Source of the DNA: Parasphingorhabdus marina DSM 22363 | GTDB lineage: Bacteria > Pseudomonadota > Alphaproteobacteria > Sphingomonadales > Sphingomonadaceae | NCBI RefSeq assembly: GCF_900128895.1 | Contig: NZ_FSQW01000002.1 | Span: 1,485,001-1,549,000, forward strand | Length of the DNA stretch: 64,000 nucleotides | Direction of reading: 5' to 3' | In this document: positions 12,843-17,381 of the stretch, piece after piece | Layout: the number at the start of each line of letters is the position of its first letter | Numbering within the stretch: position 1 is the stretch's first letter | Notes under the pieces: generated by a model | Database searches by the model: none | Seen by the model: the letters and a program-made list of their open reading frames with translations, nothing else | Told to the model about the DNA's origin: nothing | Made by a program: the position numbers and the translations under genes

Positions 12843-13031
12843 GGAAGGTCCTTCGTCAAAAAGTGGTACTTTTTGCCGGATTGGGGAAAGCCTCCGCAAG
12901 GGAGACAATCAGGCTAAAGCAGGTGAATCGATTGTTCGGGAGCGCTTTAGCGCAGCACCGTGGCTGGTGCAATGTGGCGACGGGAATTATTGTGGGATTC
13001 TCGTTGCTGGCGGCTTCCATGGGTCGAAATC

Positions 13032-13055
13032 GTCATCCCAGCGCAGGCTGGGATC
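13032..13055. repeat. intergenic palindromic repeat, copy 1
   Basis: A perfect 8-bp stem (ATCCCAGC, loop gcag, GCTGGGAT) lies inside a 24-bp unit beginning GTCATCCC. Near-identical units are at 13093-13116 and 13426-13449, with a diverged relative at 61281-61305. This is the REP-like intergenic palindrome type common in sphingomonads. Confidence 0.85.
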
Positions 13056-13092
13056 TCAGGCAACCACACCCGACCGCTCGTCCACACCCCAT

Positions 13093-13116
13093 GTCATCCC
13101 AGCGCAGGCTGGGATC
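13093..13116. repeat. intergenic palindromic repeat, copy 2
   Basis: Identical over 24 bases to copy 1 at 13032, with the same 8-bp stem and gcag loop. Confidence 0.85.
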
Positions 13117-13218
13117 CCGGGCGGCTGTACGGAACAGACTCACGCGAAGCCGCGAAGGCACGAAGGGCCGGCGCGCAGCTGGAACCCATAGCCCGTCACC
13201 GGGAGCACCGCCCCGGTT

Positions 13219-13306
13219 CGTCGTCCCGAACTCCCCAACCCGTCATCCTGAACGCCCCAATCCGTCACCCTGAACGCCCCAACCGTCACCCTGAACTCGT
13301 TTCAGG
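13219..13306. repeat. short imperfect tandem repeat, period 21-22 bp
   Basis: Three to four units begin near 13219, 13241, 13263 and 13284, each of the form CGTC(A/G)(T/C)CC(T/C)GAAC followed by CCCCAA(T/C)C. The last unit instead runs into CCTGAACTCGTTTCAGG (13290-13306), whose reverse complement recurs at 13352-13368. They lie in the 654-base gap downstream of aconitase, which otherwise shows no gene I can support. Confidence 0.7.
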
Positions 13307-13368
13307 GCCCATTCCTCCTCCCGCGCCACCTGTGATCGGGGCACAATGGATCCTGAAACGAGTTCAGG
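13290..13368. repeat. long inverted repeat around CCTGAACTCGTTTCAGG
   Basis: The 17-bp arm 13290-13306 is perfectly reverse-complemented at 13352-13368. The similarity extends a few bases outward (GTCACCC versus GGATGAC). It forms a stem with a 45-base loop, and the arms are themselves a typical alphaproteobacterial dispersed repeat. Confidence 0.75.
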
Positions 13369-13425
13369 ATGACGGGAAGGAAAAGCGGAACCACCGGTAA
13401 ATCCCCAGCCCCCACCCTACCCCAT

Positions 13426-13449
13426 TTCATCCCAGCGCAGGCTGGGATC
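13426..13449. repeat. intergenic palindromic repeat, copy 3
   Basis: Third copy of the unit at 13032, with the same stem and loop but TTCATCCC instead of GTCATCCC at the left edge. Confidence 0.8.
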
Positions 13450-13496
13450 CAGAGCGACGACACGCAACAGATGCGTGCGAAGCCGCGAAGCCCCGC

Positions 13497-13637
13497 TCAT
13501 CCTGAGCACAGTCGAAGGACCAGCGCCCACAACCACCGCGCATAGTCGCGCGCCAGCAACAGGATGATCACCACCGAGACCGCAAAGACCAGCCCCTCAA
13601 CCACCCGCGCCCGCCTGCCGCGCCGAGGTCCGGTCAT
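13497..13637 (-). CDS. small single-span membrane peptide (46 aa)
   Basis: The frame encodes 46 residues: a basic head (MTGPRRGRRARVVEG) and one transmembrane stretch (LVFAVSVVIILLLARD), ending in WLWALVLRLCSG. Its ATG overlaps the stop codon of the 37-residue frame upstream in an ATGA arrangement, which implies translational coupling. The stop falls in repeat-type sequence, so the last residues may have been acquired. Basic head plus a single span recalls small phage or toxin-like membrane peptides. No family is recognised. Confidence 0.4.
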   Translation of the reverse strand: MTGPRRGRRARVVEGLVFAVSVVIILLLARDYARWLWALVLRLCSG

Positions 13638-13950: not shown

Positions 13951-14156
13951 GTTTAGTGAATGAGGGGCGGAGTGGCAATGGGAAGTATTGCGTCAACAGT
14001 ACCTAAAGTCAAAACTAGCGTGAGTTCGGCTTGCTAGCTGTGAAGCTTAGCTGTTTGGAGATCCTTGTTCGTTGGACGGTAACAAGTTTTGATTCCGGCG
14101 AGTTGCAATCGGTTATACTTGCGGGGCTTGATCTCAATAAGCAAGCGCCTTGATTT

Positions 14157-15017
14157 CTACTTATAGTTTTCCACTATTTGTGCTGCTGCCCGATCAATCT
14201 CTGGAAACAGTGTACCTGCGTCGATCCCGATTGCTCTCAGCTCATTCCTTATTTTTTTCTTGGCGTTTTTAGGTATACGAATGGAGTATGAGGAAATTTC
14301 TTTCGAAAATGCAGAACTGTCCTCCAGTTTCAAACCGAATGCCAGAAACGCACCACTCTGAGCAATGATCCGGGCGTTGTTCTGCTTTGCGACAACATAG
14401 TAGGGTCGAAAAAGATCATCCTTTTTTATCCTGGCCTGAAAATGAGGTTTTTCCTCCCGGATAAACTGAAGCAAGCGATCAGTCGGATGTAGCTTATGAA
14501 AATCAGAAATATTGGATGCTGTAGTATTCTCAAGTATCTCTTTTTCCGACATTTTTAAATTTGCAAGGTTACACACACAACTCACTGAATCGCTATCATA
14601 ATACTTTTTTCTGTCAGCACTAATTCTGTAGATTATTAATGAGCCGTCTTCATTTTCGCACTCGGTTACAGCAAAATAAAGCCCCACCAACGGGTTACTG
14701 GTCACGTCCATTAACCGCGTTGGCAATCCAAAATGTTGCATCCGCACAAGCCGGTCAAACATCGTGTTGTCATGCAAAAAATGATCGGGGTATCTCGACA
14801 CCAGATCTCGCACAATTGTGTACTCGGAACTCAAAATTCTCTGAGATTGTCTAAATATGCTTGGAGTTGCCGTCCAAGAAATGGAGCCATGGCCTCGATA
14901 GCAACTGAACGTATCTGATTCATCAGACAGTTTTTGCACTCTAATAAGCGCGTCAGAAACGCTATCTACAAGGCCGATTTCCCTTGGCCGATTTTTTTGT
15001 TTGTTGTTCGAAGGCAT
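14157..15017 (-). CDS. FRG-domain protein, candidate defence component
   Basis: The 286-residue protein contains an FRG domain, named for a conserved Phe-Arg-Gly that here reads CYRGHGSISW at about residues 39-48. The strongest signature is RMQHFGLPTRLMDVTSNPLVGLYFA at about 92-116. FRG domains are widespread in phage-defence and stress modules, but their biochemical activity is poorly defined. The ATG at 15015-15017 is my choice; a TTG at 15029 overlapping the upstream stop is the alternative. It follows the DUF7946-like gene by about 8 bases, so the two form one operon. The region is much richer in A+T than its surroundings, a sign of transfer. Confidence 0.8.
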   Translation of the reverse strand: MPSNNKQKNRPREIGLVDSVSDALIRVQKLSDESDTFSCYRGHGSISWTATPSIFRQSQRILSSEYTIVRDLVSRYPDHFLHDNTMFDRLVRMQHFGLPTRLMDVTSNPLVGLYFAVTECENEDGSLIIYRISADRKKYYDSDSVSCVCNLANLKMSEKEILENTTASNISDFHKLHPTDRLLQFIREEKPHFQARIKKDDLFRPYYVVAKQNNARIIAQSGAFLAFGLKLEDSSAFSKEISSYSIRIPKNAKKKIRNELRAIGIDAGTLFPEIDRAAAQIVENYK

Positions 15018-15025
15018 CCTCAAAC

Positions 15026-16012
15026 TCAAAGCAAATCGTCGATTTCATCAATGGTGCTAACATCAACTACTATGAGACGAAGAGGCTCTCCAGAAGTACT
15101 CCGCACAATGTAAGCATCGACACTGACTTTGTCCTCCTGCATCGCCGATAGAAGATCGAATTTCAGATCATCTTTTCGATCAGCTGGAACGGAGAACGAT
15201 GGAATACCTTCCCAGTAAACATTCCGAAACTTCCCCCAACCTGTTTCCTTGTTGTATTGTACAATATTAACATCAATCGAAGTTACTTCTTTGTCAATTC
15301 TGATTGATTCCAATGCACTTGCAGTCTCTTGGTTGGCGGTGAGTATTGGCCTTTTGCCAAGCCCGTCGATCGTGGAAATTGTCACTAGTTTTGCGCTACG
15401 TCTTAGTGGTACAGCCAATTCGCTGAGGAGTGGAGTGGCCATTGTCACCAGTGCAGCATCTTGGTCTGGGGTGATTTGCGCAAGCAAGTCTCTGTGACTT
15501 TTGAGATAACTTCGCCGTTCAACTTCAGATATTAATCTATCGAGCAACTCGTTCTCACTAGGCTCCAATCCTCGATCTGTCTCAAAACGAGATCGAAGGA
15601 CCTCAATCGCTTCATTACTGTCGAAGATATTGTGATCGACCAACTCAAAGAACTCGGAGCGGAGCGCATTGTCATCGATAAGATCTAGCGCTGCACTGGT
15701 TTCTATGGGCTGAAATACCCGTTCTATAATATAGGTCCAAAGTGCTGTCAGCGGGACATCTATTTTTGCTTCGTCATCTTCGGATGTTGACGCCGCCACA
15801 TTGAGATTAAAGCTTCCCTTTTCAAATGGAAACAAATCTATGTTTGTTCGAGAAGCTGCTGTTACTCTTTTGGAGAAACGACCTGTTTTCCTGAATTGAT
15901 CAAGTTTCACCGAAAGACGAGCTGCAGCGTATTGAAACCTAGCAGCCTCATAAAAATCCATGCGATTTGAATCGGCCAATCCACCCTGAAAATGGAAGTT
16001 TAGTGCGTCCAT
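15026..16012 (-). CDS. DUF7946-like protein, partner of the FRG protein
   Basis: The 328-residue protein opens with NFHFQGGLADSNRMDFYEAA (about residues 5-24). This matches the start of proteins annotated DUF7946, which read 'GG-AD-HR-DFYDAAR'; I recognise it from memory of that family. The middle is helical and acidic. The C-terminal part (about 215-328) is beta-rich with KFDLLSAMQEDKVSVDAYIV and ends LIVVDVSTIDEIDDLL, perhaps a small interaction domain. GGGA lies 8 bases before the ATG. It is the first gene of an AT-rich two-gene operon with the FRG gene, the arrangement expected for sensor plus effector. Confidence 0.6.
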   Translation of the reverse strand: MDALNFHFQGGLADSNRMDFYEAARFQYAAARLSVKLDQFRKTGRFSKRVTAASRTNIDLFPFEKGSFNLNVAASTSEDDEAKIDVPLTALWTYIIERVFQPIETSAALDLIDDNALRSEFFELVDHNIFDSNEAIEVLRSRFETDRGLEPSENELLDRLISEVERRSYLKSHRDLLAQITPDQDAALVTMATPLLSELAVPLRRSAKLVTISTIDGLGKRPILTANQETASALESIRIDKEVTSIDVNIVQYNKETGWGKFRNVYWEGIPSFSVPADRKDDLKFDLLSAMQEDKVSVDAYIVRSTSGEPLRLIVVDVSTIDEIDDLL

Positions 16013-16203
16013 AACTGTGTTCCCAAAAACATCGACACATTATTAAAATGCATCCAATACACTAGAGCCAAAAAACATACTGTTGAATATATGTGTATTC
16101 TGTATGTCTTCTTTAATAGTACCTTCAATCAAACTCAAAAAATATATCCAACAATGAGTTTCCGCCTACAAAGGCAACAGGCCTTGATTGCAAACAGCAA
16201 TCT

Positions 16204-16581
16204 CTAATTCCGAATAGTCCAAAGCCCAGATCCAATGCCACCAACTGATTTGAACCAATCCCTATGCCCCAAATAGGCATCTGAATCAGAGCTATTCTGC
16301 TCTATTTCCCGCCGGATAATCGCCTCGGTGTTCCGGGGAAGCGATCTCCCATTCTTGGCTCTGATATCTCTTACTTTCTTGTAGATCTTTTTCAGTTCAA
16401 CCGCACCATCGAGGCACCGAAAAGCTGAACGCACATCATCTCTCCACCTTGCAAATTCCTCCTCACCAGGCGCGGATGGCACAAGCAGTCTTCTGAGAAT
16501 ATCATTCTCAGATTCCTCTCCTTCTGCACGATGTGCCCAGATACTCGCGAAAACGTCAGTATCGACCTCAATTTGCCTCAT
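16204..16581 (-). CDS. small DNA-binding-type protein with a SeqA-like N-terminus
   Basis: The 125-residue protein begins MRQIEVDTDVFASIWAH, then ESENDILRRLLVPSA. It lines up with the E. coli SeqA N-terminal multimerisation region (IEVD at the same place, E-S-x-x-DILRRxL and a following SA). The SeqA methyl-GATC-binding C-terminus is absent. A different small C-terminal domain follows, ending SDAYLGHRDWFKSVGGIGSG, which resembles short winged-helix-like tails seen near restriction genes. The ATG at 16579-16581 is best because AGGAG lies 7 bases upstream; the ATG two codons earlier is too close. Four GATC sites at 10-bp spacing sit just upstream. Confidence 0.6.
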   Translation of the reverse strand: MRQIEVDTDVFASIWAHRAEGEESENDILRRLLVPSAPGEEEFARWRDDVRSAFRCLDGAVELKKIYKKVRDIRAKNGRSLPRNTEAIIRREIEQNSSDSDAYLGHRDWFKSVGGIGSGLWTIRN

Positions 16582-16608
16582 GGTCATTCTCCTGATGCCG
16601 CTGTATCA

Positions 16609-16648
16609 GATCTTTTTCGATCTATCTAGATCTTTATTGATCTAACTA
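16609..16648. promoter_or_regulatory. four GATCT repeats at exact 10-bp spacing
   Basis: GATC occurs at 16609, 16619, 16629 and 16639, each followed by T and five A/T-rich bases, giving a four-unit 10-bp array 28 bases before the start of the SeqA-like gene. One site per helical turn places all four on the same DNA face, as expected for cooperative binding by a small oligomeric repressor. Autoregulation by the adjacent protein is inferred. Confidence 0.65.
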
Positions 16649-16700: not shown

Positions 16701-17381
16701 GTGACAGCGAAGAAACCCAAAAACCCCCTTATCCCCTCCTACAATCCGGGCAATCGCAAGATCCGCCATGATGGCTGGACGCCGGCCCGCACGAAAACCT
16801 TTCTGGCGACGTTGCGGCAGACGGGCTGTGTGACCGATGCGGCGCGGACGATCGGGATGTCGACGGCTTCCGGCTATCGGCTGCGCAAGCGGGATGCGGT
16901 GTTTCGGGCCGCCTGGGATGAAGCGCTGGCCGATGCGCGGCGGGGGCTGATTGCGGTGGCGCATGAGCGGGCGGTGGTCGGGCGCGAGACGGTGATTATC
17001 CGCAAGGGCGAGGAGGTCGAGCGGCGGATCCAGCCGAGCGATGCGATGCTGGCGCTGCTGATCAAGCATGGTGATATGGGCGGTGACGGCGCGGGGCGGC
17101 AGCGGATCGGCAATCGCACCGCCGACAAGATCCTGACGCAGGACGAATGGCGCGCGGGGATGGGCTTTGACGGGCGCGGCGAGAAGGTCGATGCGGTGAC
17201 GCTATACGGCGATACCCGGGCGCGGATCGATGCCAAGCTCGACCGCATGCGCGCGCGGCTGGAACAGGAGCAGGAGCGGACCGGCGAGCGGCGGATCAAT
17301 ATCCGTACCGGCGAAGGGATCACGCCGGAGGTGATCGCGGCGGTGCAGCGCTTTGCGGCGGGGGTTGATTGCGGTGGCTGA
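16701..17381 (+). CDS. terminase-small-subunit-like helix-turn-helix protein
   Basis: The 226-residue basic protein has an N-terminal helix-turn-helix, about residues 28-65: TKTFLATLRQTGCVTDAART, then IGMSTASGYRLRKR, followed by FRAAWDEALADARRG. This resembles the DNA-recognition region of phage terminase small subunits and related packaging regulators. A long charged helix (RARIDAKLDRMRARLEQEQE) lies near the C-terminus. No large terminase or other phage genes are nearby, so it is a solitary remnant or a domesticated DNA-binding protein. The start is a GTG at 16701 without a clear Shine-Dalgarno sequence. Its G+C is high, unlike the AT-rich genes to its left. Confidence 0.6.
   Translation: MTAKKPKNPLIPSYNPGNRKIRHDGWTPARTKTFLATLRQTGCVTDAARTIGMSTASGYRLRKRDAVFRAAWDEALADARRGLIAVAHERAVVGRETVIIRKGEEVERRIQPSDAMLALLIKHGDMGGDGAGRQRIGNRTADKILTQDEWRAGMGFDGRGEKVDAVTLYGDTRARIDAKLDRMRARLEQEQERTGERRINIRTGEGITPEVIAAVQRFAAGVDCGG

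Follow-up and report, generated by a model that had tools for sequence, protein, structure and literature searches.

The putative regulator gene and its surroundings

The window, that is, the whole 64-kb stretch of Parasphingorhabdus marina DNA that was analysed, carries on its minus strand the gene of a 125-aa protein (16204..16581) that combines a SeqA-N-like module with a C-terminal domain predicted to be a winged helix. The likeliest start codon is the ATG at 16579-16581; an upstream ATG at 16585-16587 would give a protein of 127 aa. GGAGA, which resembles a ribosome-binding site (16588..16592, minus strand), precedes the ATG at 16579-16581 and was read directly. The SeqA-N-like module corresponds to residues 1-33 of the 125-aa form (16483..16581, minus strand) and has been assigned from Pfam, PDB, and profile matches. 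The C-terminal domain comprises residues 45-125 (16207..16449, minus strand) and has been assigned from AlphaFold2, Foldseek, and the related loci L003 and L004.

A tandem, operator-like array is located in front of the gene (16606..16645, minus strand). It is formed by four 10-bp units of the type nnAGATCnnn, at 16636-16645, 16626-16635, 16616-16625, and 16606-16615, which read TTAGATCAAT AAAGATCTAG ATAGATCGAA AAAGATCTGA on the minus strand. Direct reading of the letters confirms the GATC positions given in an earlier note on this DNA, namely 16609, 16619, 16629, and 16639, each of them GATCT on the plus strand and AGATC on the minus strand, the strand of the gene. There are 27 bases between the nearest of these GATCs and the ATG at 16579-16581. 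A possible -10 element, TGATAC (16603..16608, minus strand), overlaps the end of the fourth unit; a promoter consensus scan reported no promoter on the strand of the gene and did not pick up TGATAC. A terminator-like stem on the plus strand at 16592-16609 (one found, 0.3 expected) was judged weak.

The next gene on the strand of the regulator (15026..16012, minus strand) encodes a 328-aa protein with weak DUF7946/DUF7947 matches. It is overlapped by four bases by an FRG-domain gene (14157..15029, minus strand), which matches the PADLOC candidate defence family PDC-S15 with an E of 1.5e-106. Passages of PMC9503650 put the FRG domain forward as an antiviral effector and a possible NADase. The regulator gene, the 328-aa gene, and the FRG gene are contained in a stretch of low GC (14000-16499, 0.42-0.45, versus 0.57-0.65 in the seven nearest flanking bins), which was probably acquired.

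The common strand, the common low-GC stretch, and the PDC-S15 match would suit a protein in charge of a small defence island, controlling the neighbouring pair made up of 15026-16012 and the FRG gene. We consider this quite improbable, since the 191 bases between the 328-aa gene and the regulator gene contain no GATC and no FRG gene was seen by eye in the flanks of the orthologous loci L031-L034. A conserved role as controller of an FRG pair is not supported for the latter reason, and the conserved role of the array is therefore not tied to the FRG gene. Pfam gave no match of any kind for the next genes beside the L031, L033, and L034 orthologues. Azospirillum (L086) and Tritonibacter (L087) encode relatives of the 328-aa protein; neither annotation nor inspection by eye shows an FRG gene immediately following them. 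The gene at 16701 is a member of a common family, present in 27 of 30 genomes and often in several copies. The intergenic region 13000-13500 contains repeated short segments (CCTGAAC, CAGGATGACGG, and similar, by eye), possibly repeat elements.

Phase and spelling of the array

The phase of the GATCs in the window is beyond chance. No other set of four successive GATCs in the 64 kb is evenly spaced, for spacings of 4 to 39 bp. In the 77 bases upstream of the gene, 16 identical 4-mer pairs are found at lags 10 and 20 taken together, against a shuffle mean of 0.87, and none of 2000 dinucleotide shuffles reached this count. The earlier note was thus right that four phased GATCs are unlikely by chance. 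Its expectation of one GATC per 256 bases does not hold for this DNA, where 556 sites (407 expected) amount to about one per 115 bases. In the genome of the organism itself, perfect matches to AGWTC-n5-AGWTC-n5-AGWTC occur solely within the array of the window. A single match with one mismatch lies elsewhere (G000:C2:814139), and a control pattern written backwards gives the same number. A genome-wide, SeqA-like target set of three-unit arrays was rejected, as the perfect matches are at the window locus only.

Relatives of the protein are few. Matches of any kind to it were found in 11 of 196 genomes of a first sample and in 17 of 397 genomes of a same-family sample, and mostly cover one domain only. 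Six orthologue loci with the full architecture have been compared, namely L031, L032, L033, L034, L021, and L072, with L032 being a near copy of L031. For L031-L034 the identity is 52-56 per cent. In all six loci an array is found at the same place just upstream of the gene, which bears out the proposal that the array belongs to the gene. Units 2-4 keep the 10-bp register in all six arrays with changed bases; unit 1 is out of register in L034 and L021, and L033 has only three complete units. In the 27 complete units, window included and one incomplete unit of L033 left aside, position 6 is T in 26 and position 7 is C in 25, while position 5 holds T in 17 units and A in 8. The 23 cores from outside the window comprise 12 GTTC, 3 ATTC, 3 GATC, and 5 others, with one further GATC in L021 out of register. 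The array of L072 alone contains AGATC, AGTTC, AGTTC, and TGATC. TGATA is found at the end of unit 4 in five of seven arrays.

The long gene directly in front of the L031-L034 loci has been read as UvrB, which Pfam confirms for L031 and L034, and the upstream ends of L021 and L072 look by eye like uvrB ends. Because at least L031-L034 share this position behind uvrB, their arrays are related by descent and hence not independent. As a side observation, the slot behind uvrB is occupied by a winged-helix or a RAMA version of the family, depending on the genome (L021, L027-L029, L031-L034, L072; uvrB assigned by Pfam in L031 and L034, elsewhere by visual inspection of the upstream ends), and it may be an exchange site.

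GATC would be how this locus writes a unit of the form nnAG(T/A)TCnnn. No homologue lacking the upstream array was found among the six, yet the arrays are mainly not GATC arrays. The expectation that GATCT arrays would be kept upstream of homologues holds for the array and its phase and fails for the letters, the core being mostly GTTC (12/23) and GATC in 3/23. GTTC/GAAC is not a Dam site. An involvement of GATC or Dam methylation, as the earlier note suggested, is not borne out by these cores, nor by the genome, in which a search for the Dam-type methylase PF02086 gave no match; the control search was positive in 4 of 14 genomes. Since close relatives keep the spacing and spell the site differently, GATC methylation is probably not what the array serves. 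The mixed cores are explained by a DNA-binding protein for which A and T in the middle are both acceptable; a reader of GATC methylation does not account for them. A methyl-GATC switch was rejected as the units change to GTTC in the orthologues.

A protein that, like SeqA, recognises GATC in the hemimethylated or methylated state, with the array as a methylation-sensitive switch, would account for four GATCs in phase next to a gene with a SeqA-N-like N-terminus. Passages of PMC11037411 also describe DpnI-type winged helices that read G6mATC. Such a reader is barely credible here: the orthologue units are mostly GTTC, no PF02086 methylase was found in the genome, the perfect array pattern is at one locus only in that genome, and both the SeqA C-terminal domain and a DpnI_C match are absent. 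Phase has been kept and letters have not, and a misleading clue, the GATCs in phase, is thereby removed.

The two domains of the protein

The Pfam SeqA_N model matches residues 3-35 of the 127-aa form with 22.8 bits, just below its cut-off of 23. The window protein matches SeqA in the PDB (3fmt) with an E of 0.0027, and A2, a profile of nine alphaproteobacterial N-termini, has only SeqA as its PDB matches (1xrx, E 0.0028; 3fmt, E 0.033). The family profile was positive in 11 of 299 sampled genomes of the phylum, four from the class of the window and seven from other classes, and all seven proteins from other classes, compared over their whole length, score above the NCBIfam SeqA cut-off. Since the profile finds only SeqA in the PDB and these seven pass the SeqA cut-off, the relation to SeqA is taken as real. 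By these profile comparisons the resemblance is real but modest and covers about 35 N-terminal residues. The earlier note had described a close alignment with the SeqA N-terminus; the homology of about 35 residues stands. None of four relatives (L072, L031, L034, L024) matches Pfam SeqA_N at E 0.1, and two of these four have weak DUF7557 matches below the cut-off. Weak VAPB_antitox matches, also below the cut-off, are seen in some relatives. L026, a relative of the RAMA type, exceeds the SeqA_N cut-off with 23.8 bits.

The AlphaFold2 model of the N-terminal part is poor, with blocks of pLDDT 43-72 and helices at residues 10-17 and 27-35. Residues 1-9 have a pLDDT below 50 and form no strand in the model. 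In a Foldseek search with the model, SeqA 3fmt ranked third with a probability of only 0.18. From the order of the elements and from the examples of MetJ, Arc, and omega, we infer a likeness of the module to the ribbon-helix-helix fold (strand-helix-helix).

In SeqA, the N-terminus serves oligomerisation and the C-terminus DNA binding, and T18, I21, and A25 are instrumental in the oligomerisation, according to passages of PMC6225831. These filament residues are invariant in seven of seven SeqA proteins and are replaced by R, G, and E in the window protein, so that the SeqA oligomer contact is not kept. Among 35 aligned non-SeqA members (window included, near copies L025, L032, and L071 left out), position 18 is R in 34 and position 25 is E in 25.

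The statement of the earlier note that the SeqA C-terminus is replaced by another small domain is supported by the analysis: the window protein has no Pfam match to the SeqA C-terminal domain at E up to 1, and a winged helix is predicted in its place. At fair confidence, with blocks of pLDDT 80-93, AlphaFold2 folds the C-terminus into three helices plus a wing. The Foldseek matches of this part have probabilities up to 1.00 and a best E of 0.073, with none at 0.001, and many of the best are what we take to be winged-helix proteins; DpnI is absent from the best 50 of 342. No match to DpnI_C (PF17726) was found at E up to 1 in the window protein and 11 members of the domain, and the DpnI_C profile gave no match in the genome of the organism, nor in 14 control genomes. 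An hhalign comparison with one DpnI_C protein, a weak test with a single sequence, gave a probability of 1.5 per cent. A PDB profile search with the C-terminal alignment returned a repeat artefact and weak matches only.

The C-terminal domain is also found at the N-terminus of L003 and L004, both of which have HNH nuclease parts (HNH_2 with an E of 1.2e-12 in L003; read by eye in L004). Four plasmid matches cover the C-terminal domain only, and the records H1-H3 are annotated as HNH endonucleases. The whole gene has no match among 50,697 phage records, and none of 15 pattern matches in viral_contigs was confirmed. Carriage of the whole gene by phages or plasmids was rejected on these phage and viral results and on the C-terminal-only plasmid matches.

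The nuclease associations (L003, L004, and H1-H3) raise the question of an autoregulator that senses DNA modification, in which the winged helix would detect modified or foreign DNA and the protein would be pulled off its operator. Sections of PMC11037411 consider RAMA and winged helices in the role of modified-adenine readers. G6mATC is recognised by some winged helices, and among the new winged-helix fusion proteins about 10 per cent contain the motif for it. The same sections report that no confirmation was obtained for a preference of one RAMA protein for methylated DNA. As the DpnI_C sequence match is absent as well and a nuclease fusion alone is no proof, we regard a modification-sensing autoregulator as unlikely. 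The suggestion of the earlier note that incoming phage DNA may be sensed would, if it applies, involve the predicted C-terminal winged helix and is a weaker possibility.

The wider family and its upstream repeats

Periodic repeats are also found upstream of further relatives. L024 has the same architecture; its core differs, with CTC occurring five times at exactly 10 bp. In eight upstream regions of the winged-helix type, window not counted, 18 identical 4-mer pairs are found at lag 10 (shuffle mean 2.5, reached in 0/2000) and 15 at lag 8 (mean 2.7, 0/2000), the latter mostly in L035 and L036. With L072 added, the nine upstream regions have a sum of 20 at lag 10 and of 34 at lags 10 and 20 together, which were reached in 7 and 0, respectively, of 100000 random draws from real DNA with an AT content of 50 per cent or more. 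Not one identical 4-mer pair at lag 10 comes from L034, L021, or L035. As controls at the same lag, four winged-helix genes without SeqA-N gave no pair and seven seqA genes one pair in total. The period counts omit L025 and L032 (near copies of L024 and L031, respectively), L071 (copy of L032), L039 (gene not recovered, the locus being truncated), L078, L083, L084, and, as carriers of another C-terminal domain, L020 and L022; L072 enters only the count of nine.

A SeqA-N-like module is joined to a RAMA-like C-terminus in L012-L014, L016-L019, L023, L026-L030, L037, L038, and L041-L045. By our reading these proteins fall into two groups with 10 upstream regions each. The second group, without a winged helix, has 32 pairs at lag 9 against a shuffle mean of 3.3 (0/2000), and in a subgroup of the RAMA-type loci ACTATT-like sequences recur upstream every 9 bp. 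The first group is best at lag 7 and shows no clear excess at lag 10 (6 pairs against 3.6, 394/2000). In a scan with Pfam RAMA (PF18755) that took in nine RAMA-type proteins together with L012 and L023, each with a supposed single RAMA segment, 6 of the 11 match at E 0.1 or better, all below the cut-off (L027 6.9e-8, L044 1.7e-7, L043 7.5e-6, L019 0.0032, L030 0.0042, L023 0.03). There is no match at E 0.1 in L012, L016, L018, L026, and L045. L035, scanned besides, has no Pfam RAMA match either, and "RAMA-like" is our reading only for most of the first group, L035, and L036.

Two loci, L035 (4479-5258) and L036 (4449-5237), encode a SeqA-N-like module, a RAMA-like segment as read, and a winged helix in one chain, and have upstream CCTC sites 8 bp apart. 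L020, L022, L083, and L084 combine the SeqA-N-like module with a third type of C-terminal domain. Repeats resembling TTATAAGG are seen by eye further upstream in several of these four, and L020 and L022 have no lag-10 pair.

The array of the window is probably the gene's own operator, at which this small putative DNA-binding regulator would cover the promoter and limit its own expression. In outline, a small and probably dimeric protein would bind DNA as a regulator, with its SeqA-N-like module (strand-helix-helix, ribbon-helix-helix-like) sitting on successive 10-bp units. The units are one helical turn apart, which would place the bound proteins on one face of the DNA. Covering the promoter in this way would limit expression of the gene, and the C-terminal winged helix may provide a second DNA contact or a signal input. 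In this scheme we infer the dimer, the N-terminal fold, the binding, the promoter overlap, and the repression. Self-regulation is the most likely function.

We lean slightly towards the SeqA-N-like module, rather than the winged helix, as the part that would read the units, because periodic repeats follow the module across different C-terminal domains. The assignment is tentative, given that in SeqA itself the C-terminus does the DNA binding. The division of labour described for SeqA in the cited passages of PMC6225831 would instead be retained if the winged helix read the units and the N-terminal module only joined the subunits so that the heads fall one turn apart. The core also varies with the subtype by our reading, the G-[IM]-G type going with AGWTC and the GKG type with CCTC or ACTC, but subtype and core may simply track descent. 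A winged-helix reader is rendered somewhat unlikely by the second RAMA-type group, which also has periodic upstream repeats, and by the four winged-helix genes without SeqA-N, which have none.

More broadly, the SeqA-N-like module could be an exchangeable head on putative modification readers, with self-control through short-period tandem operators and with SeqA as a specialised branch. The alphaproteobacterial heads joined to a winged helix, to RAMA, or to both would then form a family of modification-responsive regulators. Taken together, this wider reading is tentative and rather doubtful. Searches of the open-licence literature of PubMed Central brought up no recognisable description of SeqA-N joined to RAMA or winged-helix domains, nor of a SeqA-like alphaproteobacterial protein.

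The finding as first given becomes ordinary, and the SeqA-N-like family behind it is more interesting. The analysis groups the N-terminal module of SeqA with a larger number of small proteins from alphaproteobacteria whose C-terminal domains differ, and this offers a testable route to the origin of the SeqA architecture. In addition, many proteins of the family gain a candidate DNA target in their own upstream repeat.

Comparison with known systems

With DpnI, HhiV4I, and their relatives, as treated in parts of PMC11037411, the window protein shares a predicted winged helix, which L003 and L004 carry together with HNH nuclease parts; unlike DpnI and its relatives, it has no nuclease domain and no DpnI_C sequence match. 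The proteins with a RAMA domain (PF18755) are linked to the family through sister proteins that join the SeqA-N-like module to a RAMA-like domain, whereas the window protein lacks a RAMA segment. MetJ, omega, and Arc are small ribbon-helix-helix autorepressors with tandem operators. The likeness to these three lies in the putative strand-helix-helix module and the short tandem boxes before the protein's own gene; the window protein differs in its additional C-terminal winged helix, as predicted, and the PDB sequence comparison reached only SeqA. About 35 N-terminal residues of SeqA are homologous to the window protein, which differs from SeqA in the absence of the SeqA-C domain, in the replaced oligomerisation residues, and in having a 10-bp array before its own gene, the core of which is not GATC-specific.
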